33,712 bases of DNA, taken from NCBI GenBank assembly GCA_900317885.1, contig ONIM01000012.1, positions 1 to 33,712 of the forward strand, read 5' to 3'. The position numbers and the translations under genes are program-made. Below are positions 380 to 16,964 of the stretch, piece after piece. The notes beneath the pieces are model-generated. The model had not been told where the DNA came from. It saw only the letters and a program-made list of their open reading frames with translations, and searched no databases. Within the stretch, counting starts at the first letter, position 1. Each line of letters opens with the position of its first letter. The stretch comes from an uncultured Bacteroidales bacterium. GTDB lineage: Bacteria; Bacteroidota; Bacteroidia; Bacteroidales; Paludibacteraceae.

Positions 380-447
380 TTTTTTGTGCAAAAACGCAGT
401 AAAAATGCATAAAATCGCATATTTTTTCTTGCATATGTCATAAAAAA
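380..447 (+). promoter_or_regulatory. Phased A/T-tracts (likely bent DNA) upstream of the araC promoter
   Basis: Runs of A or T fall at about 380-385, 390-394, 401-405, 411-414, 422-427 and 442-447, that is, close to one helical turn or a multiple apart, separated by GCA-containing spacers. Such phasing usually gives intrinsic curvature. It sits directly upstream of and over the araC promoter. The stretch 277-428 contains no gene that I can see. Confidence 0.4.
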
Positions 448-459
448 GCAGTATCTTTG
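429..459 (+). promoter_or_regulatory. araC promoter (Bacteroidales TTG-N20-TAnnTTTG)
   Basis: TATCTTTG at 452-459 matches the Bacteroidales -7 consensus TAnnTTTG, and TTG at 429-431 is placed 20 nt upstream as a -33 element. This is the same geometry as the ATPase promoter at 4952-4982. It leaves a short leader before the ATG at 503. A TGGCACT sequence (490-496; AGTGCCA on the other strand) lies in that leader and could be an autoregulatory site. Confidence 0.65.
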
Positions 460-502
460 CGGCGGATTTTGGATAACAGACCTAAAACATGGCACTTTTT
501 TG

Positions 503-1396
503 ATGTCTCAGGTAGAAAAAAAGGAAATATTACAAGAGATCACTCCTTTGGAGGAACATGATTTCATGTACGTTGCAGATCGTCATAAGGCCGGATATGA
601 TTATCCGCTTCACCGGCATGATCTGTTTGAACTCAATTTCGTGGAGAATGGTGCCGGTTGCGAACGCATAGTAGGGGATTCAGTGGAAACCATAGGAGAG
701 TATGATCTTGTCCTCATCACCTCGCCAAATCTCGAGCATCAATGGTTGCAAGGCGATTGCCATAGCAATGATATTCACGAAGTGACCATTCAGTTTTCTT
801 TGGATTTTCTGGATAATTGCTTCTTTGACACCAACCCCATGTGCTCTATTAAGAATATGCTGATGCGTGCCCAACGAGGTCTTGCTTTTCCCCTTGCTGC
901 AATCATGACTATCTACCCTCGTGTCATTAAGATATCGAGTATTAAGGAAGGATTCTATGCGGTCATAGAGCTCTTCAATATTCTCTACGAACTATCTAAA
1001 TTCGATGATGCACGCGAACTGTCTTCATCCTCTTTTGCGCAAGTCAAGCCCAATATGGAGAGCGCGCGTGTAGCACGCGTAAAAGACTATATCTCTGCGA
1101 ATTATATCGAAGATATACGTCTGGAGCAGATGAGCAAACTTGCGAACATGTCGCCTACTGCCTTTTCCCGTTTTTTCAAACTGCGGACAGGAAAAACGCT
1201 GGCGGAATATATTGTCGATGTACGACTGGGGCATGCGTCCCGTATGTTGATAGACACCAACGAGCCGGTGTCGCAAATCTGTTTCTCTTGCGGATTCAAT
1301 ACGCTCACCAATTTCAACCGCCTTTTTAAGAAGCGGAAAGGTTGTTCTCCAACCGAATTTCGGGAAAAATATGCCAAAACAAAGGTAATAGTGTAA
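503..1396 (+). CDS. AraC-family transcriptional regulator
   Basis: A 297-residue protein with the classic two-part AraC layout. The N-terminal part (about 20-110) is a cupin-like sensor with HRHDLFELNFVENG (38-51), the usual sugar-responsive arm and barrel. The C-terminal part (about 188-290) carries two helix-turn-helix motifs: IRLEQMSKLANMSPTAFSRF, then PVSQICFSCGFNTLTNFNRL followed by the family signature FKKRKGCSPTEFRE. I chose the ATG at 503; the TTG at 500 is in frame but adds one residue only. It is the only transcription factor in the window and the best candidate activator for the mannan locus and the two large surface proteins, because AraC-like direct repeats sit at their promoters (1390-1416, 6394-6430, 12266-12293). 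That link is inference. The gene ends just before the first of these promoters, and its stop codon overlaps the upstream half-site. Confidence 0.93.
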   Translation: MSQVEKKEILQEITPLEEHDFMYVADRHKAGYDYPLHRHDLFELNFVENGAGCERIVGDSVETIGEYDLVLITSPNLEHQWLQGDCHSNDIHEVTIQFSLDFLDNCFFDTNPMCSIKNMLMRAQRGLAFPLAAIMTIYPRVIKISSIKEGFYAVIELFNILYELSKFDDARELSSSSFAQVKPNMESARVARVKDYISANYIEDIRLEQMSKLANMSPTAFSRFFKLRTGKTLAEYIVDVRLGHASRMLIDTNEPVSQICFSCGFNTLTNFNRLFKKRKGCSPTEFREKYAKTKVIV

Positions 1397-1445
1397 TATC
1401 TGCTAAAAAAGTGTCAGTGAATCTCGGAAAATAGCAGTAATTTTG
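1390..1445 (+). promoter_or_regulatory. Promoter of first mosaic protein with AraC-like half-sites
   Basis: TAATTTTG at 1438-1445 is the -7 box. There is no TTG at the -33 position; instead AGTGTCA occupies 1410-1416, leaving 21 nt to the -7 box. A one-mismatch copy, AGTGTAA, lies 20 bp upstream (1390-1396) over the araC stop codon. The same AGTGYCA-N21-TAnnTTTG layout recurs at 6424-6459 and 12287-12322. Lack of a -33 box together with repeats abutting it suggests an activator-dependent promoter. Confidence 0.6.
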
Positions 1446-1576
1446 CGGCGTGTTTGGAAAATACACAACAAAACACGCAACTTTAAAAACACTATACCTA
1501 TGAAAAAAACATTTACTTTCTTTGCAATTTCTGCATTGTTTTTAATGCTCTTGTTCCCAGTTTCCGTGAAGGCGGA
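1401..1576 (+). repeat. Duplicated promoter-leader-signal-peptide cassette, copy 1
   Basis: This 176-bp stretch matches 6415-6590 without gaps at an offset of exactly 5014 bp, with 14 mismatches by hand alignment. It covers the AGTGTCA element, the -7 box, the 5' leader and the first 25 codons (signal peptide). Identity stops abruptly after the signal peptidase region, where the mature proteins diverge. Only one mismatch falls in the coding part. Confidence 0.9.
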
Positions 1577-4500
1577 TCCGATTGTAAAATCATTTCAGTT
1601 TACGAATTCTGCACAGAATGGCGATGCTTCAGATGATAACTGCAACGGAGGAACGGTGAGTGGCTGGAATACAGTAACTACTAGCGATTTTCATTTCTCG
1701 GGAGCATTGTATAATGTTGTGAAAACACACGAATATAATAGCGAAAGATGGACTGGATTTGACGGCGGTGCTAAGGCTTGTACACGCGAAGATGTTTCTT
1801 TGACTGCCGGACACTATACGTTCACTTTGCGGGCAATGAAAACGGAGCATTCTAATGATTTCCGCGTTCCTCAAATAACAGTGGATAATCACACTTATTC
1901 TATAGACAATGTAAATTGGGTGAATGATAATGAAGAAAAAAATCTTCAGTACGAAGTAACAATTAGTACGTCGGGAGATTATCCTATTTTAATTACATGC
2001 GTTGATGGGGATAAAGATAAATTTTGGATGCAGAAATTAACTATTACTCCGAATTGTACGCAACATTCGGTGACCGTTGCCGCAGATGATAATGATAAAG
2101 GAACCGTAGCAGGAGGTGGTAGTTATTGCGAAAATTCGGAGGTTACAGTTACCGCCACTCCCAATCCGGGATATAATTTCGTTAATTGGACTGATAATAA
2201 TAACTCAAATGCAGTAGTTTCTACGAATGCTTCTCACACATTCACTCTTACTGCTAATGTTAATTACCGCGCAAACTTCGCTGCTTGCGAAGGAGCTGCC
2301 GTTACGGTAAATAGAAATAATAATGATTATGGAACCGTTACTGGTGAGGGTAGTTATTGCGCCGGTTCACAGGTAAATTTGACGGCAACTCCGAATAGTG
2401 GTTATCGTTTTGTGAATTGGACGGTAACGAGCGGATCGGCTTCTCTTGATAATGTGAATAATGCCTCTACCCACTTCACAATGTCCGATCCTGCTACTGC
2501 AGTCACCATACAGGCGAACTTTGAAGAAGACATAAAAGCAGATAGAACATATACGTATCGTGCGGTAGAAGATAATACAGGGCATAATACAAATGCTGGA
2601 GAAAGTACTGACGAATATCTCTTTATAGGGGCGGATGGTCAATACATTGACTTTACGCACTATTCTGCAGTCGCTACTACATGCACCATTGAGGTTGGTT
2701 TTTATGCTCCCTGGGATGGTAAAGAATTTAAAGTTTATGTGAATGATGGTCAAGAAAAGGCGAATTGGACTTGGAATACTACTGAAGGAGAAAGAGATAT
2801 GGGAGAGTTCAATTTATCTGCCGGTTATAATAAAATAACAGTTGCGGCATCTTGGACTCATTTTGGTATTCGTTATATCAAAGTGATTGTTAATGAATCT
2901 AAATATTCTGTAACCGTAGTTAACAATGATACGTATGGCACGGTAACTGCAGCTTCTTCAAATTTTGCCGGAGAAGTAGTGAATATAAGTGTGGATGCTA
3001 ACCCTGGCTACTTCTTCTCGGGCTGGGCATCCGATGATGTGACCTTTGATAATGCTTCGGCGACAAGTACTACTTTCGAGATGCCGTCAAGCGATGTGAC
3101 GATTACGGCAAATTATACCACCTGCACTCAACACACTGTAACATTAGCGGCCAATAATGGTTCTTATGGGTCTGTAGATGGTGGCGGCTTACAATGTGAA
3201 GGTTCGGTAACCGTTACAGCTACTCCTAATTCCAGTTATCGCTTTGTGAATTGGACTATCACCTCAACCAGTGAGGCCGTTTCTACCGATGCAAAATATA
3301 CCTTTGATTTATCGGCAGACATCAGCCTGACCGCCAACTTTGCAGTAGAAATATGCTCTAATAATCTAACAATTCAGTGTGAGGAGGGAACTTATCAAAT
3401 CAATTCTGCATTACTAACCAAAGGAACATCTATCCCGAATTATAAAATTGCGAATAATTGGTATTCAGGAGCAGATGGAAATTATGTAGATTTTAATAAT
3501 CACACAGGAGAAATATACTACATAATAGATTTACCTGCTGCTACGTATTCATTCACAGTCTATAAAGCGCATGCCGGAGATAGTTGGCTGAACATTTGGG
3601 AGGCTGGTTTAGGTAATGCACTTACGTATGATGGAGTAGATTATGGAAAACATCAAGGTTATGGCTATGATATAAAAGGTGATAATACGGGTTATCAAAA
3701 TACCCCTATTCATAATTCTACAATCAGCAATGTAACCCTTTCTGCGGGAACGTATATTATCGGTCTGTATGGAAATGATTATGCTGTATATGACAAAATC
3801 GTCATTACTGCTAACTCGAATGTCTTCTGTCCGACGTATGACATTACGATGGTGAATAACATGGGAGGTGCAGCGCCGACGGCAGATAAGGTGAAAGCAG
3901 AAGAAAATGCATCGGTTTCCATCAGTGCTGCCGCAACTATTGGTGAATTCTCCTTTACCGGTTGGACGGCTTCGCCTGAAGTGACTTTTGCGGATGCGTC
4001 GGCGATAAGTACTACCTTTACTATGCCGGCTGAGGCTGTAGCTATTACCGCGAACTATAATACGTATTCTCGTACCGGTGCGCCGATTGCTGCCGGTAAT
4101 TATGGAACAATATGTCTTCCGCTAAATGGTACAGTAACCGGTGCAACGCTGTATAGCGTGGCTGGAAAAGAGATAAGTGAAAAAACATATATTGTTCTGG
4201 AAGATAAAGGTACTTCTCTTGAAGCTGGCAAACCGTATATTTTCCAATTGTCTGCCGATGAGTTAAGAGTAGCGCTGGATGGGACCTATACAGATCTACA
4301 AGCCGGGAACGGCCTCGAAGGAACGTATGAGCTTATTAATCTTACCCCGTATGATGAGACTCACCATAACTATTTCCTTTATGCAAACGCCTTCAAGAAA
4401 GCGGGTACTGGTGTTACAGTGGGAGCCTATCGTGCATACCTGAACTGGGACGAAGTGAGTGCACCTGCGCCGGCACCGAGTGCACGTCGTATACGCATGG

Positions 4501-4640
4501 TGATCGAAGGACAGGAGGTTCAAACCGGAATGGAAACGGTGACCGCTATGCCGAAGACGACAAAGGTGCTGATAGACGGTCAACTTTTCATCATCCGCGA
4601 AGGCAAGCGCTATACGCTCACAGGCGCGCGTGCTCAATAA
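1500..4640 (+). CDS. Large secreted mosaic protein with InlB-type repeats and carbohydrate-binding-like modules
   Basis: A 1046-residue exported protein. The ATG at 1500 starts a good signal peptide ending VSVKA (21-25); the longer reading from TTG 1443 would begin inside the -7 box and is rejected. Modules: a beta-sandwich at about 25-185; divergent InlB B-repeats at about 188-261, 266-342, 469-540, 543-615 and 780-854 (signature TVTATPNxGYxFVNW...ANF); a CBM-like module at about 345-465 ending WTHFGIRYIKV; another at about 620-770 ending YDKIVIT; and a C-terminal domain at about 860-985 starting NYGTICLPL. The last residues (VLIDGQLFIIREGKRY...) form a short tail shared with the proteins at 6514 and 12373. 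The CBM-like module resembles that of the GH5 mannanase at 19873, so binding of plant glycan at the surface is plausible, but no catalytic domain is seen. The 49-aa peptide gene follows 32 nt downstream. An adhesin role is the alternative. Confidence 0.85.
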   Translation: MKKTFTFFAISALFLMLLFPVSVKADPIVKSFQFTNSAQNGDASDDNCNGGTVSGWNTVTTSDFHFSGALYNVVKTHEYNSERWTGFDGGAKACTREDVSLTAGHYTFTLRAMKTEHSNDFRVPQITVDNHTYSIDNVNWVNDNEEKNLQYEVTISTSGDYPILITCVDGDKDKFWMQKLTITPNCTQHSVTVAADDNDKGTVAGGGSYCENSEVTVTATPNPGYNFVNWTDNNNSNAVVSTNASHTFTLTANVNYRANFAACEGAAVTVNRNNNDYGTVTGEGSYCAGSQVNLTATPNSGYRFVNWTVTSGSASLDNVNNASTHFTMSDPATAVTIQANFEEDIKADRTYTYRAVEDNTGHNTNAGESTDEYLFIGADGQYIDFTHYSAVATTCTIEVGFYAPWDGKEFKVYVNDGQEKANWTWNTTEGERDMGEFNLSAGYNKITVAASWTHFGIRYIKVIVNESKYSVTVVNNDTYGTVTAASSNFAGEVVNISVDANPGYFFSGWASDDVTFDNASATSTTFEMPSSDVTITANYTTCTQHTVTLAANNGSYGSVDGGGLQCEGSVTVTATPNSSYRFVNWTITSTSEAVSTDAKYTFDLSADISLTANFAVEICSNNLTIQCEEGTYQINSALLTKGTSIPNYKIANNWYSGADGNYVDFNNHTGEIYYIIDLPAATYSFTVYKAHAGDSWLNIWEAGLGNALTYDGVDYGKHQGYGYDIKGDNTGYQNTPIHNSTISNVTLSAGTYIIGLYGNDYAVYDKIVITANSNVFCPTYDITMVNNMGGAAPTADKVKAEENASVSISAAATIGEFSFTGWTASPEVTFADASAISTTFTMPAEAVAITANYNTYSRTGAPIAAGNYGTICLPLNGTVTGATLYSVAGKEISEKTYIVLEDKGTSLEAGKPYIFQLSADELRVALDGTYTDLQAGNGLEGTYELINLTPYDETHHNYFLYANAFKKAGTGVTVGAYRAYLNWDEVSAPAPAPSARRIRMVIEGQEVQTGMETVTAMPKTTKVLIDGQLFIIREGKRYTLTGARAQ

Positions 4641-4672
4641 TAAGGTTTAATTGGATTAAATCGGGAAAAACT

Positions 4673-4822
4673 ATGAAACGTATGTATCAACAACCCTCTA
4701 TACAAACAACGGAAAACATCTATACCGCGCAAGTATTGTGCGCTTCGGGATGGCCTTCTTTAACACCTAAGTTAGAGGTAGACACCGGTGGTGAACCGCA
4801 AGGCGGCGTGCCCGCCTGGTAA
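4673..4822 (+). CDS. 49-aa peptide, small Bacteroidales type, downstream of mosaic protein
   Basis: A short open frame (ATG 4673, TAA 4820-4822) begins 32 nt after the large gene and shares its transcript up to the terminator at 4895-4930. The peptide starts MKRMYQQPSIQTTENIYTAQ, continues VLCASGWPSL, and ends GGEPQGGVPAW. It resembles the many short Bacteroidales proteins with a basic start, a YxxPxxxxxE-like segment and a (L/M)CASG core followed by a Gly/Pro/Asp-rich end. The function of these is not established. No signal peptide or membrane span is evident. The position, directly after a surface-protein gene and before a strong terminator, supports it being real. The alternative is a chance ORF. 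Confidence 0.6.
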   Translation: MKRMYQQPSIQTTENIYTAQVLCASGWPSLTPKLEVDTGGEPQGGVPAW

Positions 4823-4894
4823 CGCGCCCCTCGACGAACCATCCCGGATGTGAGATCCGTTCTTACCCTATCATTCCTGCCCTCGTCCAACGGG

Positions 4895-4930
4895 GCAGGG
4901 ATGCTTTGTGGTAATATCCCTGCTTTTTTT
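4895..4930 (+). terminator. Intrinsic terminator of the first mosaic-protein unit
   Basis: An 8-bp perfect stem (GCAGGGAT 4895-4902, ATCCCTGC 4916-4923) is followed at once by seven Ts (4924-4930). The left arm can instead pair with an upstream arm (4873-4882), which would disrupt this hairpin. Confidence 0.85.
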
Positions 4931-4951
4931 ATCTTTTTTTCCTCCAAATCC

Positions 4952-4982
4952 TTGTGTATATCAAAAAAAAATTGTACTTTTG
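4952..4982 (+). promoter_or_regulatory. Promoter of the AAA/DUF4143 ATPase gene
   Basis: TACTTTTG at 4975-4982 with TTG at 4952-4954, 20 nt apart, is the housekeeping Bacteroidales layout. No AGTGYCA element is present, so this gene is probably outside the regulon of its neighbours. Confidence 0.65.
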
Positions 4983-5047
4983 CAGCGGATTTTATAAAAT
5001 GCTATTTAATAAAGATGTATTGAATTATAAAATGCGATTTAACATAT

Positions 5048-6316
5048 ATGGATAAGCTAATACTCAAACAAGTCCTTTTGGACAATGCACAATTGGTGGA
5101 AAAGTTGGAGGTTTTACCTCGTGCGTACGAACTGGAAGAGTCGGTGAACTATGTCTTCACCGGTGTGCGTCGTGCGGGCAAGTCGTATATGATGTACGCT
5201 ATCATCAAGCAGTTGTTACAAAACGGTTGCTCGATGGCAGATATCCTCTATCTCAATTTTGAGGACGAGCGAATAGATAATTTTACAGCGGCGGATTTCA
5301 ATCTCTTGTTGGAATGCCATCAAGAGATGTACGGTCGAGAACCGCGTATCTTCCTCGATGAGATGCAGAACATCACTGGCTGGGAGAAATTTGCGCGCCG
5401 CATGGCGGATAGCAAAGCGCATATATGTCTCACCGGTAGTAACGCTAAAATGTTAAGCAAAGAAGTATTGAGTACCCTCGGCGGGCGATTTATCCCCAAA
5501 GATATCTATCCGTATAGTTTCAAGGAGTATCTGAACGCCATGCAGGTGCCCTATGACGAGAAAGCGCTGCTCACTACTTCCGGAAGGGCCTTATTCTTTC
5601 AGCACTACCAGGAGTACTTCTTCTGGGGCGGCATGCCGGAATCAGTGGGGATGAAGACCAAACGAGACTACCTCAGCAGCACTTATCAGAAGATTTATCT
5701 GAACGACATAGTCTCTCGCAATAAAATCAATAATATCGCGGCCTTGCGTCTGCTAATAAAGAAGATGGCGGAGTCGGTTAAACAACCGGTGTCCTACAAT
5801 CGAATGAGCAATATCCTCTCTACCATCAACGGCAAAATCTCTGTGCCGACCGTGCAGAGTTATATCACCCATACCGAAGATGCATGGTTCTTACTGCGCT
5901 TGCGTAACATCACCGGTGCGTTGTCTGAAAAAGAGAGTATTTGCAAGTATTATTTCATTGATAACGGGTTTCTGAATCTCTTCTTGTTGGATGGGAAATC
6001 GTCTTTATTAGAGAATATGGTAGCGCTGGAACTCTTCCGCCATTATGGTCACGATCCCGAGAACGACACGGTCTATTTCTATAGTGCCGGCGAAGAAGTG
6101 GATTTTTATATCCCCGAGGAGGAGTGGGCCATACAGGTAGCCTATAACCTATCCGAAGATGCAACTCGACAACGCGAAGTGACCGCATTAACTAAGATTG
6201 CTAATGCACTACCTTGCAAGCGACGCACTATTATCACCTATGATATTAAAGACACCATTACTGATGCGCATGGTGAAATTGAAGTAGTACCTTGTTGGGA
6301 ATGGCTCGTTCGTTAG
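5048..6316 (+). CDS. AAA-family ATPase with DUF4143 C-terminal domain
   Basis: A 422-residue cytoplasmic protein with no signal peptide. The N-terminal AAA_14-type core has Walker A GVRRAGKS (39-46), Walker B RIFLDEMQ (100-107) and a sensor-like CLTGSNAKML (127-136). The C-terminal DUF4143 region includes YYFIDNGFLNLFL and the VDFYIPEEEWAIQV stretch, which may be a degenerate nuclease-like core. Length is typical of the family. The cellular role of these common, scattered ATPases is unknown; toxin-antitoxin-like or mobile-element-linked roles have been suggested for relatives without proof. It has its own promoter and lies between two co-structured surface-protein units, which looks like an insertion or a hitch-hiking gene. 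No terminator is obvious after it. Confidence 0.88.
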   Translation: MDKLILKQVLLDNAQLVEKLEVLPRAYELEESVNYVFTGVRRAGKSYMMYAIIKQLLQNGCSMADILYLNFEDERIDNFTAADFNLLLECHQEMYGREPRIFLDEMQNITGWEKFARRMADSKAHICLTGSNAKMLSKEVLSTLGGRFIPKDIYPYSFKEYLNAMQVPYDEKALLTTSGRALFFQHYQEYFFWGGMPESVGMKTKRDYLSSTYQKIYLNDIVSRNKINNIAALRLLIKKMAESVKQPVSYNRMSNILSTINGKISVPTVQSYITHTEDAWFLLRLRNITGALSEKESICKYYFIDNGFLNLFLLDGKSSLLENMVALELFRHYGHDPENDTVYFYSAGEEVDFYIPEEEWAIQVAYNLSEDATRQREVTALTKIANALPCKRRTIITYDIKDTITDAHGEIEVVPCWEWLVR

Positions 6317-6393
6317 GAATTGCTATTTCGTCGTAGGCCCCACATTCAAAAATATTCTATTTTCTCACATTTTGAGCTAAAAAAGATCAAAAA

Positions 6394-6459
6394 AGTGCCA
6401 AAGGGTGCAATTACTGCTAAAATAGTGTCAGTATATTTGGTGAAATAGTAGTAATTTTG
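6394..6459 (+). promoter_or_regulatory. Promoter of second mosaic protein with AraC-like half-sites
   Basis: TAATTTTG at 6452-6459 is preceded by AGTGTCA at 6424-6430 with exactly 21 nt between, as in the other two promoters of this type. A further exact AGTGCCA lies at 6394-6400 and a weak match (GGTGCAA, 6404-6410) 20 bp upstream of the proximal site. Apart from this promoter, the 6317-6513 gap holds nothing I can identify. Confidence 0.6.
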
Positions 6460-6590
6460 CAGCGTATTTGGAAAATACACAACAAAATACGCCACTTTAA
6501 AAACACAATACCTATGAAAAAAACATTTACTTTCTTTGCAATTTCTGCATTGTTTTTAATGCTCTTGTTCCCCGTTTCCGTGAAGGCGGA
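6415..6590 (+). repeat. Duplicated promoter-leader-signal-peptide cassette, copy 2
   Basis: Second copy of the 176-bp cassette at 1401-1576, in direct orientation. It starts at TGCTAA and ends right after the signal-peptide codons. Homologous recombination between the copies would delete 5014 bp and place copy 1's promoter before the 1765-aa protein. Confidence 0.9.
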
Positions 6591-9500
6591 ACTTGTTAGT
6601 TCTCTTAAAGTAGAGGCGGAGGACGGTTTGAGCATAGAAGTTATTAATAGTAGTAATTGTTCTCCGAGCAACATGAGCCTGAATACTGAGGAACAATTTG
6701 GAGGTTATTCCGGTACAGGTGGTATGATCACAGAAAGTGGAGAGGTATATCTTCCTTTAGTGATAGACTATAATGGCGTTTCGTATGGATCTATGACTTT
6801 GGATTTCCAGATTCGTTGTGGTAATAATGAGAATGATCGAACCTATATTAACTTTTATCAAGAGTGCGCAGGAAATGAATCTCCCGATTTACGAATCTCT
6901 TCTCCCGGTTCTTATTACAACAAATATTATAAAAAAGTTGAGTATAAAAAGGTGTATGATGGGGGGTGGTACCGAGCATATCAAACGCATACAGTGAATA
7001 GGAGTTTTACCGAAGGAAGTTATTTGATCGGATTGTATGCACGCAATTGGGCTATATACGATTATGTGCAGATCAATACCTCTGCAGCCATTATTCAAGA
7101 TGGCGATGCAGAACCCTCCTGCACCGCGCCTAATCATGTGGATATTAGCGGTAATTGGGATTATTTCGTAGGAGAGACAATCAGTCTTTCCGCACAGGCG
7201 TATTCTTCTGCAGGTACAGGTTCTCCGATTGCAGAGGGCAATATCACCGGCTATCAGTGGAAACACAATGGTGTGAATATTGTTGGTGCGACATCCAAAA
7301 CATATTCACTAACGACCACCTCTCCTACCGATGGCGGTGATTATAGTTGTGTTGTTTCTACCGGCGCAACATGCAGTACAGAGGGCGTAATAGGTACGAA
7401 AGTCTATGCTCTGCAGTGTTACACAGACGGGACAACAACCTATAATTTTACACGTGTTGGTACAGATAAAGTTGGAACAGTAGAAGTGCCGCTAAACTCG
7501 GGGCAAAAAGAATTTAAGATTTATGCCGGTGCTTTGCAATACTACGGCAATAACACATCTGCGGTCTATTCCGATATTTCCAATTATGAGTTCAGAGATA
7601 GCGAGGGTAATTTTAAACTGGAAGCAGGCTTAGGTGGTACTTTTACCTTTACAATTGATTATACCGATAATGGCGGTGCACCCAAAGTATCAGTAACTTA
7701 TCCCCGCAAGACGATATATCTTACTCCGGGTGTCTGGGATATAGACGATGCAAAGTTTGCTATCTACTATTTTATTAGTGAAACTGTCAAAGGTTGGACG
7801 GATTTCATGACGGCGAATGACTGTGGCATGTCGGCAGAGATACCACTGTGGAATGGCGTGAAAATGATTGCCGCGCGTATCAATGGAAGTTTGGATGCGC
7901 CGGCTTTTGGAGATGGCAAATGTTATAACCAAACGAGTGACATTACAGTAGAATCTTCCAAGGACTATATTTCCATTACTGGTTGGAATAATAGTGACTA
8001 TACCTATGGCACTTTTTCTCCCTCTACTTATACCATTTCCTTTGCAGGCAACGGCAATTCGGGTGGTTCGATGAGCAATGTGACGGCTATTCCTTGTGGC
8101 GAAGATCGTACATTGGTTGCGAATGGATTTACGAAAACCGGTCATTCCTTTACGAACTGGATTGCTAATGTAGCTGTCAAGATCAACGGAGCAACGGTTA
8201 CGGCTGGTAGCTCGATTAGTAACGAAGCAACCATCCAAGACATTACTCAAAACATCACCCTCACCGCTCAATGGGCTCCGAAAACCACCTCTGTCACTCT
8301 TGATGCAAATACCGCTAATCATGGTGCTACGGGTAGTAGCGTCACCGCCACATGGGGAACTGCTCTGCCGGTTTTTGACGCAGCTACGGGTGTGAGCGGT
8401 TATGCATTAACCGGATATTTCACGGATCCTACCGGTGGTACAAAAATCATTAACGCTGATGGTACATTAGCAGCAAGTACCACCTATACCACAGCGGATA
8501 GCAAATGGAATAGCGAGTTAAGCGCCTTAACGCTTTATCCGCAATATGAATCGTCTATCAGTCCTAAAACGGTTCCTTGTTCTTTGGGTTTCTACTATAC
8601 AGAGGTTGGAACCGGTGCACAGGATAAGGTTATTTTAGATAGCGATTTCAGTTATAGTTGTAATAAAGATAATGCTAAAAATGACCAGCATAATCCTTAT
8701 CAACAGGTCTGTTTCTCCGGCTCCGGTCATATACTAACCTCCCGCATGAACGTTGTTTTCCCGCAAACGGGTACATATATATTTACTTTTCCTCTGTATA
8801 TTAAGGAAAGCGGCAACTATGACGCGCCTCGCGTAACGGTGAACGGTCAACAATCAGCAGCCGCTACTATTTCAACTACCGGCGAGGAAAATCGGAACTA
8901 TGAAACAACCCTCAATGTAACAGCAGGAACATATACCGTATCGATTTGGATTGGAAATACGAATGAGAAAGTGTTCTTCTCCACAATGGAAATCGATTCC
9001 TATCAATGCCGTAATATAATTACTACCGGTGCGGTGGGATTGTTCGATTTGTATATAAAATCTGGAGGCGGAGCAAGTTATACATGTTCCAGCGTTGCCG
9101 ATCCGGAATGTCATTTTGATCATAATGTCTTCTGTTTTGAATACTCGAATATGGGTGGTAACGGTAGCAACTATTATGGTTGCCGCTTAACGAGTGGACC
9201 GGCTTATACCCCGAATGCAGCTGCTACCGGCTTTGCTTTCTGGTATAGGACGGAGAGTAGTTCGGATCACGTATATATGGAGTTTGCAGATAAGACCTAT
9301 AACTTAGAAGCTACCGACGGCGCTTGGCATTATACCTATGTAGTGTCGAGTAGGGCGGGTTCTCAGAGTGGAGAGTTCGATATATATATCAACGGAGAGA
9401 AAAATGGATTCTCCACTACTCAATCTTCCGGCAAGATTTATCTATCGGAGTTGCAAGCAACGAATGTCACTTCAGCCGATCCGATAGCGCCGGCAACCAC

Positions 9501-11811
9501 TCATACCATTACCGTCGCCAGCAATAACAATACATACGGAACGGTTAGTAGTACGCCGGCGAGCGGAAGCAGCGTAACGGATTGTGCGTCTATCACCGTG
9601 ACAGCTACTCCTGAAAGCGGGTGCTCATTCGTAGAATGGAAAAAAGGAGACACCCAGGTATCTACGGAGGCTTCATATACCTTTACGATGAGCGATCTCA
9701 ATGACGGAAGCGATTTAACTTTAACCGCCTATTTCCAGCAGGACGAACTTACCATATCTTCCTTGCCTTGGGCGGGGGATCAGGATCTGACGGGACAAAC
9801 AGTAGTCTCGGCGGATGCCATTAATTCGTGCTTTGATTCGGAGATCACTTTCACGTTCACGGGAGAGGGTCCGGTGAGTTATTATGATAATACTAACCGC
9901 TCGTCTTCTCTCGGTACCGTCACCAGCGGAACGGCAATCACGCTCAACAACAACTTGCGCGCGCACGGTATATATATAAGGTGTACCTCCGGTGCTGCTA
10001 CCTTGACTGCGGTCAGCAAGACGACCATCGGCTCTGTATATCAAATATGGAGCGGCAATGTGGCAGTAGGCGATTGGAGCCAGCAAGTAGTATTGGGTCC
10101 GGAGCATTTCCAGACCGCAGCAGAAGGCGATGTTCTCCGCGTTAATACCTCCGGTGAGGGTGGGGACGCGCAAGGCGCTTTGCAGTATATCTATACAGAC
10201 GGCGATAGCCATACTTACAAGGGACTGGATAATTCTACCGGTGGAGGTTTACGAGACTGGAGTCTGAGTAGCGAAGATAAGTCCCGACACTATTTCGAGA
10301 TAACAATAAACGAAACGCATTTGGCGAACCTACAACGCCATGGCGTAATTGTCAAGGGGCGCAATTATACGATTCAAAGTGTAGAACTCCGTGCGTCGTG
10401 TTCCAACCAAGCGATGCGCACCTCCGCGCCGAATGTAACGACTTATGGAGATGATGGAAGAATCAATATCATGACCGATAAGTTGGAGCTTGATGGCGAA
10501 GGTTTTGACTTAGGTGATTGGGAGAACAAACTGGAATTGGATGAGAGGTGTTTTAACAATGTCACAGTTGGAAGTATAATCAACTTTTACATGAAAGTGG
10601 AGGACGGAGCCACTCTCTCTTTCCGTTGTAACGTGGATAGCGTACATGCGAAGAGTTATGAGGAACCACCTCTCTGCCCCAGCTACGGAGATATCTCGTT
10701 TGATCGTACGATAGACGATTTATATGGTGACGCCCCGACTCTGATAGGCAGAATTGAAGGATACAAGGTGCTCTATCTGTTGGTGGATGCTGACATGCTC
10801 CGCCGACTGAAAGAAACAGGTATGATCCTTTGCGGAAAAGGAACTCTTATCAAGGTCGTTGAGGGCGTTCCGGAAACAGTAGTGGTTAATCCGGGAGAGG
10901 GAAAGAAAGTACCTACCGTGGTGAATAACCTGACTATCTATCAGGGAGGCGAGGTCACCAACACCGAAGATATTGAGGTCTTGGGTAAAATCACCTATAT
11001 CCGTCCGGCGAAAGATGATGGTACGAGCTACAAATTGGGCAATAAGCTGGATCAATGGTACACTTTTGCCTTGCCGTTTACCGTTAGCGATGTAGAGGTA
11101 TATGACGAGGCCGAAGAGACGTGGTATGACATCAACGCCGTCTATTACTCAAGCGACGTGACGGACCAGGTTGCCAATAACCCCGATGGCGCAGGGCATT
11201 ATTACCTGCAATATCTGAAAGCGGAAAACGAGACCGTGCCGGGAGCTTTTGCCGCCCGATGGCAGTATATAACCCCGGGACATAGTCTCGCTTGTGTTAG
11301 CGAGTACGTGGCGAATGACGGTACCCGTTACGGTTATCCGAAAAAAGATGAGGCATATATTATCCTCTTCGATAGCGAGCAGCCGATAGGTTCTTATTTC
11401 GAGACGAATACGCAAATCCGCTTCGTCGGTGTCGGACCGCAAACAATCGATGGTGTAGCTAAGGAATGGAAAGTAGAAGCAGATGGTGAGCAGTATTGGA
11501 TGTATGCCAATAATACGCTGCATAGTTTTACCTTGACCGATGCCTATATTCTCAATGAGGCAGGTACCTATTTCGAACTGCAGTCCGAGCCTACCATTCG
11601 TCCGTTTGAATGTTATGTACAGGCAACAGTGTCGCTCAAGAATAAATATCCCGCACTCCCCATGCGTGGCTTCCATATAGACAACACGCCTACCGGCATG
11701 GAGAGTATGCAAGGCTCAGCTATCCGCGCAGAGAAAATACTGCGCAATGGTCAACTCATCATTATTCGCAATGGTGTGGAATATGACGCTACAGGAGCTG
11801 TGATTCGTTAA
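6514..11811 (+). CDS. Very large secreted mosaic protein (1765 aa)
   Basis: The ATG at 6514 starts the same 25-residue signal peptide as the 1046-aa protein. Modules visible: an N-terminal CBM-like sandwich (about 25-190, ending YLIGLYARNWAIYDYVQI, like residues 751-769 of the smaller protein); an Ig-like domain (about 210-315, with YQWKHNGVNIVGA and GGDYSCVV); Listeria-Bacteroides-type repeats (from about 505, with GFTKTGHSFTNW and LTAQW); a sandwich at about 690-835 related to the first module of the 1046-aa protein; a concanavalin/LamG-like stretch at about 850-985 (FAFWYRTES, WHYTYVV, FDIYINGE); one InlB B-repeat at about 995-1077; then further beta-rich modules and the tail ILRNGQLIIIRNGVEY. 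I see no catalytic motif. It is probably a surface glycan-binding protein or adhesin. The 151-aa gene follows 21 nt downstream, so the two are likely co-transcribed. Confidence 0.85.
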   Translation: MKKTFTFFAISALFLMLLFPVSVKAELVSSLKVEAEDGLSIEVINSSNCSPSNMSLNTEEQFGGYSGTGGMITESGEVYLPLVIDYNGVSYGSMTLDFQIRCGNNENDRTYINFYQECAGNESPDLRISSPGSYYNKYYKKVEYKKVYDGGWYRAYQTHTVNRSFTEGSYLIGLYARNWAIYDYVQINTSAAIIQDGDAEPSCTAPNHVDISGNWDYFVGETISLSAQAYSSAGTGSPIAEGNITGYQWKHNGVNIVGATSKTYSLTTTSPTDGGDYSCVVSTGATCSTEGVIGTKVYALQCYTDGTTTYNFTRVGTDKVGTVEVPLNSGQKEFKIYAGALQYYGNNTSAVYSDISNYEFRDSEGNFKLEAGLGGTFTFTIDYTDNGGAPKVSVTYPRKTIYLTPGVWDIDDAKFAIYYFISETVKGWTDFMTANDCGMSAEIPLWNGVKMIAARINGSLDAPAFGDGKCYNQTSDITVESSKDYISITGWNNSDYTYGTFSPSTYTISFAGNGNSGGSMSNVTAIPCGEDRTLVANGFTKTGHSFTNWIANVAVKINGATVTAGSSISNEATIQDITQNITLTAQWAPKTTSVTLDANTANHGATGSSVTATWGTALPVFDAATGVSGYALTGYFTDPTGGTKIINADGTLAASTTYTTADSKWNSELSALTLYPQYESSISPKTVPCSLGFYYTEVGTGAQDKVILDSDFSYSCNKDNAKNDQHNPYQQVCFSGSGHILTSRMNVVFPQTGTYIFTFPLYIKESGNYDAPRVTVNGQQSAAATISTTGEENRNYETTLNVTAGTYTVSIWIGNTNEKVFFSTMEIDSYQCRNIITTGAVGLFDLYIKSGGGASYTCSSVADPECHFDHNVFCFEYSNMGGNGSNYYGCRLTSGPAYTPNAAATGFAFWYRTESSSDHVYMEFADKTYNLEATDGAWHYTYVVSSRAGSQSGEFDIYINGEKNGFSTTQSSGKIYLSELQATNVTSADPIAPATTHTITVASNNNTYGTVSSTPASGSSVTDCASITVTATPESGCSFVEWKKGDTQVSTEASYTFTMSDLNDGSDLTLTAYFQQDELTISSLPWAGDQDLTGQTVVSADAINSCFDSEITFTFTGEGPVSYYDNTNRSSSLGTVTSGTAITLNNNLRAHGIYIRCTSGAATLTAVSKTTIGSVYQIWSGNVAVGDWSQQVVLGPEHFQTAAEGDVLRVNTSGEGGDAQGALQYIYTDGDSHTYKGLDNSTGGGLRDWSLSSEDKSRHYFEITINETHLANLQRHGVIVKGRNYTIQSVELRASCSNQAMRTSAPNVTTYGDDGRINIMTDKLELDGEGFDLGDWENKLELDERCFNNVTVGSIINFYMKVEDGATLSFRCNVDSVHAKSYEEPPLCPSYGDISFDRTIDDLYGDAPTLIGRIEGYKVLYLLVDADMLRRLKETGMILCGKGTLIKVVEGVPETVVVNPGEGKKVPTVVNNLTIYQGGEVTNTEDIEVLGKITYIRPAKDDGTSYKLGNKLDQWYTFALPFTVSDVEVYDEAEETWYDINAVYYSSDVTDQVANNPDGAGHYYLQYLKAENETVPGAFAARWQYITPGHSLACVSEYVANDGTRYGYPKKDEAYIILFDSEQPIGSYFETNTQIRFVGVGPQTIDGVAKEWKVEADGEQYWMYANNTLHSFTLTDAYILNEAGTYFELQSEPTIRPFECYVQATVSLKNKYPALPMRGFHIDNTPTGMESMQGSAIRAEKILRNGQLIIIRNGVEYDATGAVIR

Positions 11812-11832
11812 ACATGTTAAATAAGTGCAACC

Positions 11833-12288
11833 ATGGATAAGCAATTATCTACATCAATCGTGTTGGCTGTCCTCTTGTTCGGATTCGCTATATCGCTGTC
11901 CGCCCAGAATTATGGTAAGCCCTACCAACCCTCCCGTCCCTATCAGAGGGGGATGGCGGAAGTAGAGTTCGCTACGATGCCAACGGCTAAGATGTCCGGC
12001 AATATCGGTGGCTCGTCTGCCTATATGTCGGCAACCGCTATGCCGCAAGGGGAGATATACGAACCCTTTACTGCCTCAACTCCTTCAGGCGCCACTCCTC
12101 GTCGTTCCTCGGGCCCGGGTGGTGGTGGTACGGGCAAAACGGATACTGAGAACCCCGGATTGCAACCTATCGGCGATGGGATAGGCTGCCTCTTGATGAT
12201 GGGATTGCTATATATGATGCTTAAATATGTTTTAAAACATGTTAAAAATAGCACTTTTTTAACAAAGTGCCATCAAATGATAGAATAG
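11833..12288 (+). CDS. Small exported protein with C-terminal membrane segment, partner of the mosaic protein
   Basis: A 151-residue protein with an N-terminal signal peptide (hydrophobic core about 9-22, cleavage near LSAQ), a low-complexity Ser/Gly/Pro middle (SSGPGGGGTGK), and a hydrophobic segment IGCLLMMGLLYMML near residues 125-140 preceded by NPGLQPIGDG. The PIGD-plus-hydrophobic end resembles short hypothetical proteins that follow large surface proteins in other Bacteroidales; this is from memory and not checked. I do not know the function. Anchoring or assisting the upstream 1765-aa protein is a guess from position. The last 20 or so codons overlap a dense cluster of palindromes (12227-12272) upstream of the mannan promoter, so this C-terminus may be shaped by regulatory DNA. 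Confidence 0.7.
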   Translation: MDKQLSTSIVLAVLLFGFAISLSAQNYGKPYQPSRPYQRGMAEVEFATMPTAKMSGNIGGSSAYMSATAMPQGEIYEPFTASTPSGATPRRSSGPGGGGTGKTDTENPGLQPIGDGIGCLLMMGLLYMMLKYVLKHVKNSTFLTKCHQMIE

Positions 12289-12322
12289 TGCCAAAAGAAA
12301 CAAAAAAAAAGCGGTACCTTTG
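12227..12322 (+). promoter_or_regulatory. Mannan-locus promoter with AraC-like direct repeats and palindromes
   Basis: TACCTTTG at 12315-12322 is the -7 box. AGTGCCA at 12287-12293 sits 21 nt before it, and a second exact AGTGCCA at 12266-12272 is 21 bp further upstream, the spacing of the classic araI half-sites. An inverted near-copy (TAGCACT) is at 12249-12255. Overlapping symmetry elements: ATGTTTTAAAACAT (12227-12240, perfect palindrome), GTTAAAAA/TTTTTAAC (12241-12263), and GCACTTT/AAAGTGC (12251-12270). The transcript would lead with the gene at 12373. Confidence 0.65.
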
Positions 12323-12372: not shown

Positions 12373-13701
12373 ATGAAAAAATTATTCTCTTTTGCTCTCG
12401 CAGCTTTTGCTGCCGTTAGCATGAATGCAGCCCAATTAGATCTGGGTATTGGTGAACTGACCGACGCAGGTTGGGGTGGTTGTACTTACAACGCAGCGAC
12501 CCACACGCTGACTTTCCCCTCCGCATGGGGTTGCGGCATGGGCTGGTGGCTGGAAGCTGATTTCTCGGCTTATGACCGCGTAGTAGTTGAATTCGAGAGC
12601 GCTCCGGCTCAGATCGCTCTGAATGTGAACTATACGACGCCGGATGGGAATGGTCAACAGTATGTTCAGCAATTGGTAGGAGCTGGATCGAAGAGCGCAG
12701 AGATTCAGCTTGATCCTGCTCGTAAAAACAGCGTAGAGAAAGTCTATCTGCAGGCAGGTGCGCCATGTTCGCTTGTGCTCAAGGCAGCGTATGCCATCAG
12801 CGGTCAGGCTGTTGATCCGCTGGACGGTCTTACAGGAGAGAATGTAGGTGAGATGACCGAGCCGGGCAAGACCTGCTATCTGCCGTTAGCCGTTATCCGC
12901 GAATATGCGTATTTCGAGATCCTGGTTTCCAACAAGACCGATGAGGCGCAGAACGGATGGGGTATCGGTAAGATCGTAGCTGTTAGCGATTGGAATACGC
13001 CGGCTTTCGAACTGTCATGCAACAATCCCGGTACGGGCAATGTAAACCGCTTCGTCATCGAGCAGGCAGACATGCTGGAATATGCTAAGAAGAACGGTGT
13101 ATATCATACCGATGAATATGGTCAGCAAGGTGTACATATCAATGTATATGACGACAAAGCGACTCTCGTTTCTGTGAAGGGATATGGCGAAGGCGGAACC
13201 GGTGGCGGTTCTTCTACGGCTACCAAAACCGATCTCGGTACGCCGAACGAGTACGGATGTGTGGAGCTCTTGCTCGATGAGATCAATAGTTATGACGAAT
13301 TCGAAATAGTAGTCAACGTAACGAACGCAGCAGTAGGCGCAAACTGGGGTATCGGTAAGATTGTGCCGATCAATAACTGGAACGGTCCGTTCTTCGAGTA
13401 CAAATCCGTTAAGGCCGGTGCCGGTGAGCAAACAATCGTCATCACGAAGGCAGATATGCAAGAGTATGCCAAGGTGAATGGCGAATATTATACCGACGAA
13501 TATCAACGCCAAGGCGTTACCATTAATGCCTATGACGACAAGGCGGCTTTGGTTAAAGTGGTCGGCGTCAGCATGAGCGGCGGTAGCGCAATCGTTAATA
13601 CGACTTCCGCAGTCAAGGCAACGAAAGTCATTGAAAACGGACGCGTATATATCCTTCGCGGTAACCAACGTTACACCATCACCGGTGCTATCGCTGAGTA
13701 A
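12373..13701 (+). CDS. Secreted three-module beta-sandwich protein leading the mannan operon
   Basis: A 442-residue exported protein (signal peptide about 1-20, ending MNAAQ). It contains two clear tandem modules, about 168-270 and 296-399, that share NWGIGKIV/GWGIGKIV, ...DWN/NWN, ADM(L/Q)EYAK, Y(H/Y)TDEY, QGV and YDDKA. A more divergent first module (about 22-145) has the same YDRVVVEFE start. The linker between the last two is Gly/Ser/Thr-rich. The tail VIENGRVYILRGNQRY matches the short C-terminal tail of the two mosaic proteins. I do not recognise the family with certainty; the aromatic-rich repeated modules and position suggest a glycan-binding protein exposed at the surface. It is the first gene after the promoter at 12315 and is followed by a strong terminator, so it is likely made in excess of the downstream genes. 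Confidence 0.8.
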   Translation: MKKLFSFALAAFAAVSMNAAQLDLGIGELTDAGWGGCTYNAATHTLTFPSAWGCGMGWWLEADFSAYDRVVVEFESAPAQIALNVNYTTPDGNGQQYVQQLVGAGSKSAEIQLDPARKNSVEKVYLQAGAPCSLVLKAAYAISGQAVDPLDGLTGENVGEMTEPGKTCYLPLAVIREYAYFEILVSNKTDEAQNGWGIGKIVAVSDWNTPAFELSCNNPGTGNVNRFVIEQADMLEYAKKNGVYHTDEYGQQGVHINVYDDKATLVSVKGYGEGGTGGGSSTATKTDLGTPNEYGCVELLLDEINSYDEFEIVVNVTNAAVGANWGIGKIVPINNWNGPFFEYKSVKAGAGEQTIVITKADMQEYAKVNGEYYTDEYQRQGVTINAYDDKAALVKVVGVSMSGGSAIVNTTSAVKATKVIENGRVYILRGNQRYTITGAIAE

Positions 13702-13784: not shown

Positions 13785-16700
13785 ATGATGAAAAGATTAA
13801 TCATTTTATTTCAGTTATGTATCTTCTCCCTGCTGGCTGTAGGTCAGACCATGGAGGTACATGGTCGCGTGCTGGATGGCGCGCAAAAAGGCGAACCGAT
13901 GATTGGAGCCACCGTCATGGTCAAAGGTACAAATCAAGGGACCGTGACGGATATTGATGGTCTGTTTGTGTTACAGGTTCCTAAGAATGCGGTTCTCGTG
14001 ATCTCCTCCGTAGGATATAAGACGCAGGAAGTCAAGGCGAACAAGGATCAGTTGACGCTGACTATGGAGGAAGATACACAAGTGCTGGACGAATTTGTAG
14101 TAGTGGGCTATGGTTCGATGCGTAAAGTGGATCTGACCGGTTCTGTGGGCTCGATTACCGGCGACAAACTCAAAGAATCCATAGTGACGAACGCGGATCA
14201 GATGCTGCAAGGACGTGTCTCCGGTGTTCAGGTTACCCAGAATACCGGAGCTCCCGGCGGCGCTACCAGTATCCGCGTTCGCGGCGCAAGCTCCATCACC
14301 GGAGATAACGAACCCCTCTATATCATCGATGGTGTCCCGATGTCCGGATCCGGGGCGGATATAGGTGGATTTGATTGGGCGGGAGGGTCCAACGGTCAAA
14401 CCAAAGTAAACCCCTTAGCTACCATCTCTCCGCAGGATATCGTCTCGATGGATGTTCTCAAAGATGCCTCTGCGTGCGCTATCTATGGTGCTGCCGGCGC
14501 TAATGGCGTCGTCATCATCACTACCCGGCGCGGGGAGGCGGGGAAGATGCATGTCAATTATGACGGATATGTCGGATTGCAGACTTTTGTGCGCAAAATC
14601 AGCATGATGAACCTGCACGACTATGCCGTTTATCAGAAAGATCTGTATAACCAAGGCTTCAGTACCTATCTCAACCCCGTTTATCAGGATCCTTCTCTGT
14701 TAGGACGCGGTACGGATTGGCAGGATGCGGTTGTACGGGATGCCTTGATGCATTCTCATCAGATCTCGCTCACCGGCGGTAACGCCAAAACCCAATTCTC
14801 TATCTCCGGAGGATATATGAATCAGGAGGGTACCGTGATCGGCTCTAATTTCGAGCGTTTCTCGGCGCGTGCCAACATCGATCATGAGTTTGCCAAATGG
14901 TTCAAGTTAGGCGGTTCGCTCTCTTACGCACGCACCAAAGAGAAGATCATCAATAATGATGGCGAATCCGGTATCTTAATGTCCGCCATCACGATGCAAC
15001 CCGATATCCCCGTCAAGGATAAATTCGGCAATTGGTCAGGACCCTCTAACTTGAGCGCCTCCGCCAACTACAACCCCGTAGCCATGGCGCAGTTGTTCAA
15101 TAACCGCCTCCAACGCGACCGTATCATGGGTAGTTTCTACGGACAGTTCAATTTTACGGGCTATCTCAATCTCCGCACGGAGTATAGTTTTGATAGCAAT
15201 ACTTCGCTCAACAAGGGATTTATGCCGACCTACCAATTCGGCGTACGAATTAATAATATCAATAAGATCTATCAACGCGAGGAGCATTCCTTCTATTGGA
15301 TATGGAAGAATTACCTGAATTATAACCAGACGATAGGTAAACATACCATCGGCGCTATGTTAGGTATGGAGATGTCCCGCTCCGCATGGGAGGGTACAGC
15401 CTTGCAGAAAAATAATCTCACCAACAATGATATCCAGGTCATGGGTGAGGATGGTACCTATGTCACCAACTCGGGATGGAAGGACGCCAGCACCACCATG
15501 TCCGTTTTCGCTCGCGCAAACTATAACTATGATAACCGCTATCTGATCACCGCAACTATTCGTGGTGATGCGTCCTCTAAGTTCGGTCCCGCGCATCGAT
15601 GGGGCGCGTTCCCTTCCGTCGCCTTGGCATGGCGTATCAGCAATGAGGCTTGGATGAGGGATGTCAAGCAGATTAGCAATCTCAAACTGCGCGTAGGATA
15701 TGGTCAGGTCGGAAACTCCAATATCGGTACCTATCTCTACGCGGCGAAGATGCGCGCGTATGCTTCTTTATTCGGAACCAGTTTCCGAATGGCTACGAAT
15801 GCGAACCCTGACCTTAAATGGGAAGCATCCGAGCAATGGAACATAGGTGTCGATTTCGGTATGTTTAACAGCCGAATCGATCTCTCAGTCGATCTCTATC
15901 AAAAACAAACCAAAGACCTTCTTTTGCAACCCTCTGTACCCGCTATCATCGGCGGTAACGGATGGGATGATATAGCTACTCCGATGACCAATATCGGACG
16001 AGTACGAAACAGAGGTATCGATATATCGCTCAATACAGCCCCTGTACAAACACGCGATTTTCAATGGAATAGCAACCTCGTTATCTCCGTAAACCGCAAT
16101 ATGGTACTCGCTATGGATGCCAATAATACGCCTATCTACGGGAATATTGACTGGTATTCGGAGTTCCAAACAGCTACCGCCATAATGGTCGGACAACCCA
16201 TGGGCGTGTTTTACGGATTCCAGACCGACGGACTCTTTGAGAACAAAGAGGATATCGAGCATTGGGCGGTTCAGGTGGATGACGGAACAGGGCATAATAA
16301 GATTGACCGAAACACCGGCGTCTGGGTAGGAGATATCCGTTTCAAAGACCTCGATGGAGACGGATTTATCACCGATAAGGACCAAACCGTCATCGGTAAT
16401 CCTAACCCCGATTTTACATTTGGATTTACGAATAATTTCAGTTATAAGAATTGGACCTTGGGCATCGTCCTTAATGGTTCCGTAGGAGGACAGATCCTCA
16501 ACTACACGCGCGTCAAGACCGAAGGTATGACCTCGATATGGGATAACCAATCGACACGTGTCAATGATCGCGTGCAGTTCGGCTACTACGATGGAGACGA
16601 TACCAATAAAGATATTTCCAATCTCTATATCCTCAATAATATATCGACGACCTTGCCTCGATGGAATACGACCGATGTCAACCGTAATAACCGTATGTCG

Positions 16701-16964
16701 GACAGATGGCTCGAGAGCGCATCGTTTATGCGTATCAGTAATATCTCCCTCAGTTATACCTTCCCGGATAGATGGATGAAAAAGATTCATATCGCCAAAC
16801 TGAAACTGTATGCAAATATCCAAAACGTATGGATATTTACCGCCTATAGCGGTTACGATCCTGAGATTGGAGCGTATAACCAGCAAGCCGGCAAACTCAA
16901 TATCGATACCGGCCGCTATCCCTCACCAAGGGTATATACGTTTGGCCTCAATCTATCCTTATAA
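13785..16964 (+). CDS. susC: SusC-like TonB-dependent outer-membrane oligosaccharide transporter
   Basis: A 1059-residue protein of usual SusC length. After the signal peptide (MKRLIILFQ..., cleavage near VGQ) come a carboxypeptidase-regulatory-like domain (about 24-98), a TonB box region DEFVVVGYG (102-110), the plug domain with IRVRGASSITG and PLYIIDGVP, and a 22-strand-type barrel ending in LNLSL. Two adjacent ATGs (13785, 13788) are possible starts. SusC forms the import pore with SusD as a lid and takes up oligosaccharides using TonB energy; the neighbouring enzymes point to manno-oligosaccharides. The gene is 27 nt from susD. No promoter is visible between the terminator at 13719-13758 and the start, so expression must come from readthrough or from a promoter inside the 12373 gene. 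Confidence 0.96.
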   Translation: MMKRLIILFQLCIFSLLAVGQTMEVHGRVLDGAQKGEPMIGATVMVKGTNQGTVTDIDGLFVLQVPKNAVLVISSVGYKTQEVKANKDQLTLTMEEDTQVLDEFVVVGYGSMRKVDLTGSVGSITGDKLKESIVTNADQMLQGRVSGVQVTQNTGAPGGATSIRVRGASSITGDNEPLYIIDGVPMSGSGADIGGFDWAGGSNGQTKVNPLATISPQDIVSMDVLKDASACAIYGAAGANGVVIITTRRGEAGKMHVNYDGYVGLQTFVRKISMMNLHDYAVYQKDLYNQGFSTYLNPVYQDPSLLGRGTDWQDAVVRDALMHSHQISLTGGNAKTQFSISGGYMNQEGTVIGSNFERFSARANIDHEFAKWFKLGGSLSYARTKEKIINNDGESGILMSAITMQPDIPVKDKFGNWSGPSNLSASANYNPVAMAQLFNNRLQRDRIMGSFYGQFNFTGYLNLRTEYSFDSNTSLNKGFMPTYQFGVRINNINKIYQREEHSFYWIWKNYLNYNQTIGKHTIGAMLGMEMSRSAWEGTALQKNNLTNNDIQVMGEDGTYVTNSGWKDASTTMSVFARANYNYDNRYLITATIRGDASSKFGPAHRWGAFPSVALAWRISNEAWMRDVKQISNLKLRVGYGQVGNSNIGTYLYAAKMRAYASLFGTSFRMATNANPDLKWEASEQWNIGVDFGMFNSRIDLSVDLYQKQTKDLLLQPSVPAIIGGNGWDDIATPMTNIGRVRNRGIDISLNTAPVQTRDFQWNSNLVISVNRNMVLAMDANNTPIYGNIDWYSEFQTATAIMVGQPMGVFYGFQTDGLFENKEDIEHWAVQVDDGTGHNKIDRNTGVWVGDIRFKDLDGDGFITDKDQTVIGNPNPDFTFGFTNNFSYKNWTLGIVLNGSVGGQILNYTRVKTEGMTSIWDNQSTRVNDRVQFGYYDGDDTNKDISNLYILNNISTTLPRWNTTDVNRNNRMSDRWLESASFMRISNISLSYTFPDRWMKKIHIAKLKLYANIQNVWIFTAYSGYDPEIGAYNQQAGKLNIDTGRYPSPRVYTFGLNLSL

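Follow-up and report, generated by a model that had tools for sequence, protein, structure and literature searches.

Does one AraC-family regulator connect a mannan utilization locus with the two secreted mosaic proteins encoded next to it? The question was raised by a 33,712-nucleotide stretch of DNA from an uncultured Bacteroidales bacterium of the Paludibacteraceae (GenBank assembly GCA_900317885.1, contig ONIM01000012.1, positions 1 to 33,712; hereafter "the window", meaning the whole stretch). An araC-family gene at one end is followed by two genes for mosaic proteins and by a polysaccharide utilization locus (PUL), and a first-pass annotation made from the sequence alone had assigned three promoters in front of these genes to a single class. 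Our comparison with related genomes makes it very likely that the product of araC recognises the motif of these promoters and controls both the PUL and the mosaic genes. The promoters (P1 to P3), the sites around them and the regulator gene are the following:

429..459, plus strand: ordinary promoter of araC, assigned by position (TTG at 429-431, N20, box TATCTTTG at 452)
490..501, minus strand: putative autoregulatory site, an inverted operator copy reading AAAAAGTGCCA, between the araC -7 box and the ATG
503..1396, plus strand: araC, one-component regulator of the AraC/XylS family, 297 residues (PF12833, 1.2e-23; PF00165, 7.5e-15)
1390..1396, plus strand: distal half-site of P1, AGTGTAA, 20 bp 5' of the proximal copy and overlapping the araC stop codon
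1410..1445, plus strand: P1 (proximal half-site AGTGTCA at 1410-1416, N21, -7 box TAATTTTG at 1438)
4952..4982, plus strand: ordinary promoter of the AAA_14/DUF4143 gene, assigned by position (TTG at 4952-4954, N20, box TACTTTTG at 4975), outside the regulon and an internal contrast to it
6394..6410, plus strand: upstream half-sites of P2, AGTGCCA at 6394 (30 bp) and GGTGCAA at 6404 (20 bp)
6424..6459, plus strand: P2 (AGTGTCA at 6424-6430, N21, -7 box TAATTTTG at 6452)
12249..12260, minus strand: inverted half-site AAAAAAGTGCTA 5' of P3
12266..12272, plus strand: distal half-site of P3, an exact AGTGCCA, 21 bp 5' of the proximal copy
12287..12322, plus strand: P3 (AGTGCCA at 12287-12293, N21, -7 box TACCTTTG at 12315)

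At all three promoters AGTGYCA precedes TAnnTTTG by exactly 21 nt. The positions given in the first-pass annotation were correct throughout, as were its descriptions of the two ordinary promoters as TTG-N20-TAnnTTTG and of the distal copies, exact at 12266 and weak at 1390 and 6404. It had also called P1 and P2 copies of each other, and their identity amounts to 91% across 186 bp; P3 has in common with them only the half-sites, a few preceding bases, the 21-nt spacing and the -7 box. Three features were absent from that annotation: an AGTGCCA in inverted orientation within the araC leader (490-496), the direct AGTGCCA at 6394, and the inverted half-site at 12249-12260. A similar inverted sequence, GGCACTTTTTTGCA, lies 5' of the counterpart of P3 in genome G009 (locus L153), at a different distance; the site at 12249-12260 is a possible extra AraC contact.

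The basic pattern, AGTGYCA-N21-TAnnTTTG, was found three times in the 2,119,167 bases of the genome, every time inside the window; neither its reverse strand nor a reversed-pattern control gave a match. A search of the same genome with up to two mismatches was not used, as its 71 matches were near background (54 in the control). Since the basic pattern was derived from these very sites, the comparative test is the strong one. A longer motif, TGNNARRAWWGTGYCR-N21-TANNTTTG, was searched in 151 genomes of the genus and gave 44 sites in 24 of them, against none for the reversed control. With spacers of 14-28 nt allowed (15 lengths), 44 of 45 matches had exactly N21, and the remaining one, in G119, had N27. 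Distal copies and TTG elements were counted over 41 distinct 80-mers (the G128 stretch is absent; G028 and the G029 P3 copy are merged with identical rows). Of these, 13 have a distal GTG[TC] at 20 bp and 18 have one at 21 bp 5' of the proximal copy (31 together), and at most four have one at any other single distance from 12 to 35 bp, the 20-bp class consisting mostly of promoters immediately 3' of araC. TTG-N20 is present in none of the 41, nor is TTG at N19-N22; TTG-N18 is present in one. The AraC class II geometry proposed for the window is borne out by these numbers.

According to the model that we favour, an AraC dimer would occupy two half-sites (A/T)GTGTCAGT in direct repeat, offset by 20 or 21 bp. 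The one nearer to the -7 box TAnnTTTG, always 21 nt from it, would replace the absent -33 TTG element, so that bound AraC could contact RNA polymerase in a class II-like manner. P1 and P2 would drive the two secreted mosaic proteins, and P3 (12315) would drive the gene at 12373 and then, if the operon extends as far as we infer, SusC/SusD and the glycoside hydrolases (GHs). The ligand is probably a manno-oligosaccharide, judging by gene content.

This promoter geometry points to activation and not to repression. AraC-family members both activate and repress, and the inverted site 5' of araC's own start suggests that this AraC can do the latter. It is nevertheless improbable that AraC represses from the tandem sites, with mannan relieving the repression: the target promoters look activator-dependent because they lack the -33 TTG, which the promoters of araC and the AAA gene possess as TTG-N20. 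As for the inverted site itself, an AGTGYYA, AGTGTAA or close core was found 5' of the araC start in 20 of 22 loci (shuffle P ≤0.02; G147, with a partial locus match, was omitted), mostly between the -7 box and the ATG. This recurrence suggests a probable role in autoregulation. Negative autoregulation would be its simplest reading, with the inverted copy letting AraC limit its own expression from the ordinary promoter.

The motif and araC occur in the same genomes. An araC orthologue (at least 65% identity) was found in 25 of the 151 genus genomes, and the longer motif in 22 of these 25 compared to 2 of the 126 others (Fisher 3.9e-21, a value that overstates independence owing to the kinship of the genomes). 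Moreover, in 21 of 23 orthologous loci a motif promoter lies 3' of araC, and in 13 of the 21 the distal half-site overlaps the araC stop codon; omitted from this comparison were G150, where the contig ends inside araC, and G144, where araC is in two pieces. In G008 the promoter is more than 150 nt from araC, and G152 carries the variant GTGTTAG with unchanged spacing. The next gene after araC is of the GH26 type in 19 of the 23 loci; within the stretches read, several of which end early with their contig, a SusC homologue accompanies it in 15 and a GH36 homologue in 12, and in G101 the neighbours of GH26 on its contig are not recognisable as PUL genes. In G009, what follows the araC orthologue is a degenerate tandem promoter (AGTGTCA, then TTGTGGTAG 21 bp on, N21, TACCTTTG) and then the 12373 orthologue. 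By these two successions araC is attached to two kinds of mannan PUL, the operator accompanying it in both.

A position weight matrix (PWM) was built from 18 of the 21 promoters downstream of araC (G147, G170 and G028 were omitted as near copies); its leave-one-out scoring dropped the same genome only, so close sisters support one another. In the window and 26 fetched stretches it gave 38 matches above 14, all on the same strand within each stretch as oriented, and three column-permuted matrices gave none. Elsewhere, at 42 loci with basic-pattern matches (0-2 mismatches), the best score was 3.9, except for 32.4 at L037, a site in G009 that is described below. Searched as DNA, the P1 leader gave numerous short matches, of which only those adjacent to araC were used. 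In named relatives (Bacteroidales or Paludibacteraceae metagenome-assembled genomes, MAGs), AraC orthologues of 70-98% identity were present in 17 of the 19 loci returned, the other two being weak matches. Goat rumen or red deer appear in the names of some relatives' genomes, and those named RUG are presumably rumen genomes.

Could a different regulator, for instance a hybrid two-component system (HTCS), bind the tandem site, araC being a mere neighbour? HTCS regulators of B. thetaiotaomicron have AraC-type DNA-binding domains and operators that are direct repeats too, with a mean distance of 21 bp, as described in the accessible part of PMC3878776; the B. ovatus beta-mannan PUL, which has GH26 and GH36, includes the HTCS regulator bacova_02097, according to the accessible part of PMC5217682. 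In addition, G001 and G131 are motif-positive and have no detected araC orthologue. Yet the motif tracks araC in 22 of 25 genomes, the promoter directly follows araC in most loci, the inverted copy recurs 5' of the araC start, and near AraC homologues of ~50% identity five of six loci have a promoter with a different, AGTC-type core. Judged by these comparisons of motif and araC, another regulator is improbable.

The 503-1396 protein itself fits the role of a one-component factor. Its C-terminal domain with two helix-turn-helix (HTH) motifs was confirmed, both PF12833 and PF00165 being above cut-off, and 18 PDB sequences match this HTH region, including E. coli AraC (2k9s). For an N-terminal ligand-binding domain of the cupin type, Pfam gave no match before residue 211, and the predicted structure is poor (mean pLDDT 53.5), with strands at 41-99 but a pLDDT below 50 over residues 1-100. 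Among its 297 residues Pfam recognised HTH families only, and none of the periplasmic sensor, histidine kinase and receiver domains of a hybrid two-component system.

The genes behind the 44 genus sites are 19 of the GH26 type, one SusC, one SusD, one GH36, one SASA-type esterase and 21 for secreted-looking proteins. GH26-type targets were assigned by Pfam in two cases, by DNA comparison with G147 in the case of G128, and otherwise by BLAST similarity to the window GH26; signal peptides were judged by eye. A C-terminal tail of the type GQLxIxRxGxxYxxxG, as in the window mosaic proteins, is present in 17 of the 21 secreted-looking targets (16 by pattern, the one in G131 by eye); of the remaining four, two run off their stretch or contig and two finish without the tail. 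Models of type IX secretion sorting domains (Pfam, NCBIfam) matched neither the mosaic proteins nor the 12373 protein, and that the tail-bearing proteins are type IX secretion cargo is only a suggestion. Behind the weaker G009 site mentioned above (score 32.4) lies a gene of the GlcNAc 2-epimerase family; this site is on another contig, which also carries GH130 and an MFS_2 sugar transporter. Epimerase, GH130 and MFS_2 transporter are gene types of mannobiose catabolism.

The first-pass annotation had held that one promoter class links the mosaic proteins to the mannan locus, and had named scatter of the motif over promoters unrelated to glycan use as the observation that would speak against it. 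The link is supported by the co-occurrence of motif and araC, by the motif promoter 3' of araC, by 23 PUL-type targets (19 of them GH26) and by the arrangement of araC and the 12373 orthologue in G009. In the genus, the longer motif was not scattered beyond glycan use, a statement limited by the 21 secreted targets without established function. That the shared sequence is the mere trace of copied 5' cassettes (promoter, leader, signal peptide) without a regulatory role agrees with the identity of P1 and P2 and with the apparent recombination of mosaic genes, but is very improbable, as P3 shares so little with them, the gene families behind the 44 sites are several and unrelated, with intervening sequence that has diverged, and the spacer length is constant (N21).

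Several observations weigh against control of these genes by AraC through the motif. In 61 genomes, the basic motif gave 26 matches in 18 genomes compared to 10 for the reversed control; 11 of the 26 coincide with sites of the longer motif and 15 do not, so that outside araC loci the short motif is near background (15 versus 10). Recognised PUL-type genes make up only 23 of the 44 targets, and most of the secreted targets are without assigned function. In G001 and G131, MAGs with a stated completeness of 82% and 93%, the motif is present but no orthologue was detected at the 65% threshold; the sites are on contigs below 4 kb, ahead of secreted-looking proteins. Conversely, the longer motif is missing from three of the 25 genomes with an orthologue, namely the truncated G150, G152 with its variant and G009 with its degenerate promoter. 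P3 scores low on the P1-type matrix (18.8) and its G009 counterpart lower still (6.9). Among the 22 loci of the leader-site comparison, the site 5' of araC was not detected in G008 and was weak in G152. Finally, across 198 genomes of the order, the longer motif was found in the own genome and in one other (G289, locus L233) only; this single match in 197 other genomes has no distal copy and is possibly due to chance. The gene behind it, read by eye, looks like one for mannose-6-phosphate isomerase.

AraC homologues at greater distance were considered as controls. Six loci with homologues of ~50% identity (L108-L113) were rejected as negative controls, as L109 and L112 exceed the PWM threshold of 14; the maxima were 7.4, 17.3, 9.9, -27.1, 16.2 and 9.9, agreement with the matrix being mainly in the -7 region. 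The repeated AGTC-type core of the promoters at five of these six loci perhaps marks a sister regulon. Five further loci, L170-L174 (42-49% identity), gave maxima of 4.7, -3.3, 1.0, 26.5 and 17.4. They were ruled out as clean controls, because L173 and L174, whose AraC homologues have 43% identity, carry GTG-type tandem half-sites 3' of the homologue and ahead of a 12373-like gene. The AraC-operator system may thus extend to these two loci, whose gene order suggests an older version of the window arrangement.

The remaining genes of the window, with families called by Pfam (28515-29462 was outside the scan), are as follows:

1500..4640, plus strand: P1 target, a secreted-looking mosaic protein with InlB-type repeats (PF18998, 6e-66), a CBM35-like domain and the C-terminal tail
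5048..6316: AAA_14/DUF4143 gene, located between the mosaic genes and served by an ordinary promoter of its own, outside the regulon
6514..11811, plus strand: P2 target, a second secreted-looking mosaic protein of 1765 residues (PF18998, 4.8e-11) with the C-terminal tail
12373..13701, plus strand: P3 target, a secreted-looking protein of 442 residues with a mosaic-type C-terminal tail and no Pfam match, the first gene ahead of SusC/SusD
13785..18638, plus strand: SusC-like and SusD-like pair (PF00593, PF07715, PF07980)
18628..33712, plus strand: remainder of the PUL, namely a protein of the surface glycan-binding protein (SGBP) type, GH5 with CBM35, GH26, GH3, GH36, GH26 and GH130, and also three proteins without a clear role, one of which bears an OmpA domain

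With a SusC/SusD pair and genes of GH26, GH36 and GH130, the PUL reads as a beta-mannan PUL, and GH36 points to a galactomannan type. The AAA_14/DUF4143 gene may be an insertion; no open reading frame (ORF) was called at the corresponding place in G029. A short ORF of 49 codons (4673-4822), which by eye starts MKRMYQQPSIQTTENIYTAQVLCASG, lies between the first mosaic gene and the AAA gene.

A CBM35-like domain gives the first mosaic protein a reason to belong to a mannan regulon: by phmmer (7.3e-8), its residues 359-468 show relationship to the CBM35 part of the GH5 enzyme in the window. For the second mosaic protein, no CBM35-type match to the window GH5 was found. Between the own genome (G000) and G029 (L144), identity is 98-99% for AraC, SusC, SusD, SGBP, GH5, GH3 and the first GH26; the mosaic proteins align partially, with 74% and 64% in their best stretches, constant ends and a differing middle. 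We consider it quite possible, although short of probable, that the regulator also drives a mannan-inducible, diversifying family of glycan-binding surface proteins with fast-changing middle modules, whose constant ends would be the promoter-leader-signal cassette and the C-terminal tail. The contrast between mosaic and PUL proteins is not a sharp one, since several other PUL proteins differ as well: GH36 is 89%, the second GH26 69%, the 12373 protein 93% and three others 75-90% identical.

For a largely uncultured group of Bacteroidales, the locus offers a testable regulon of one regulator, an operator of fixed geometry and defined targets, linking mannan uptake to secreted proteins without assigned function. 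Where domain searches leave a gene unnamed, an operator match could hint at its substrate. The operator could also be of use as a promoter part that responds to mannan.

How does this arrangement compare with known systems? E. coli AraC at araI1-araI2 (class II) binds half-sites that are direct repeats at a distance of ~21 bp, of which the proximal one lies at the -35 region. Compared to these, the window sites differ in sequence and sit at a Bacteroidota -7/-33 promoter. A full-text literature search yielded no title or abstract on an araC-mannan regulon, and the accessible parts of a review of hemicellulase regulation (PMC10766802) and of a transcriptome paper on rumen Segatella/Xylanibacter (PMC11107044) contain nothing on the window operator. 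As far as the accessible parts of the literature describe them, Bacteroides HTCS regulons (e.g., HTCS_Man of alpha-mannan) resemble the window in their AraC-type DNA-binding domain and tandem operators of ~21 bp. However, HTCS_Man systems are assigned to alpha-mannans, unlike the beta-mannan PUL of the window, and the 297-residue window protein has only the AraC HTH recognised and no sensor-kinase domains. A further likeness, by description, is to the AraC-type factor FG28_RS02325 of Muricauda, which the accessible part of PMC9860051, giving no operator for it, reports to be encoded and expressed with a beta-mannan PUL; unlike the window, that PUL also has an HTCS. In the window, then, operators spaced like those of an HTCS go with a one-component AraC factor, as a further member of a kind of system already known.

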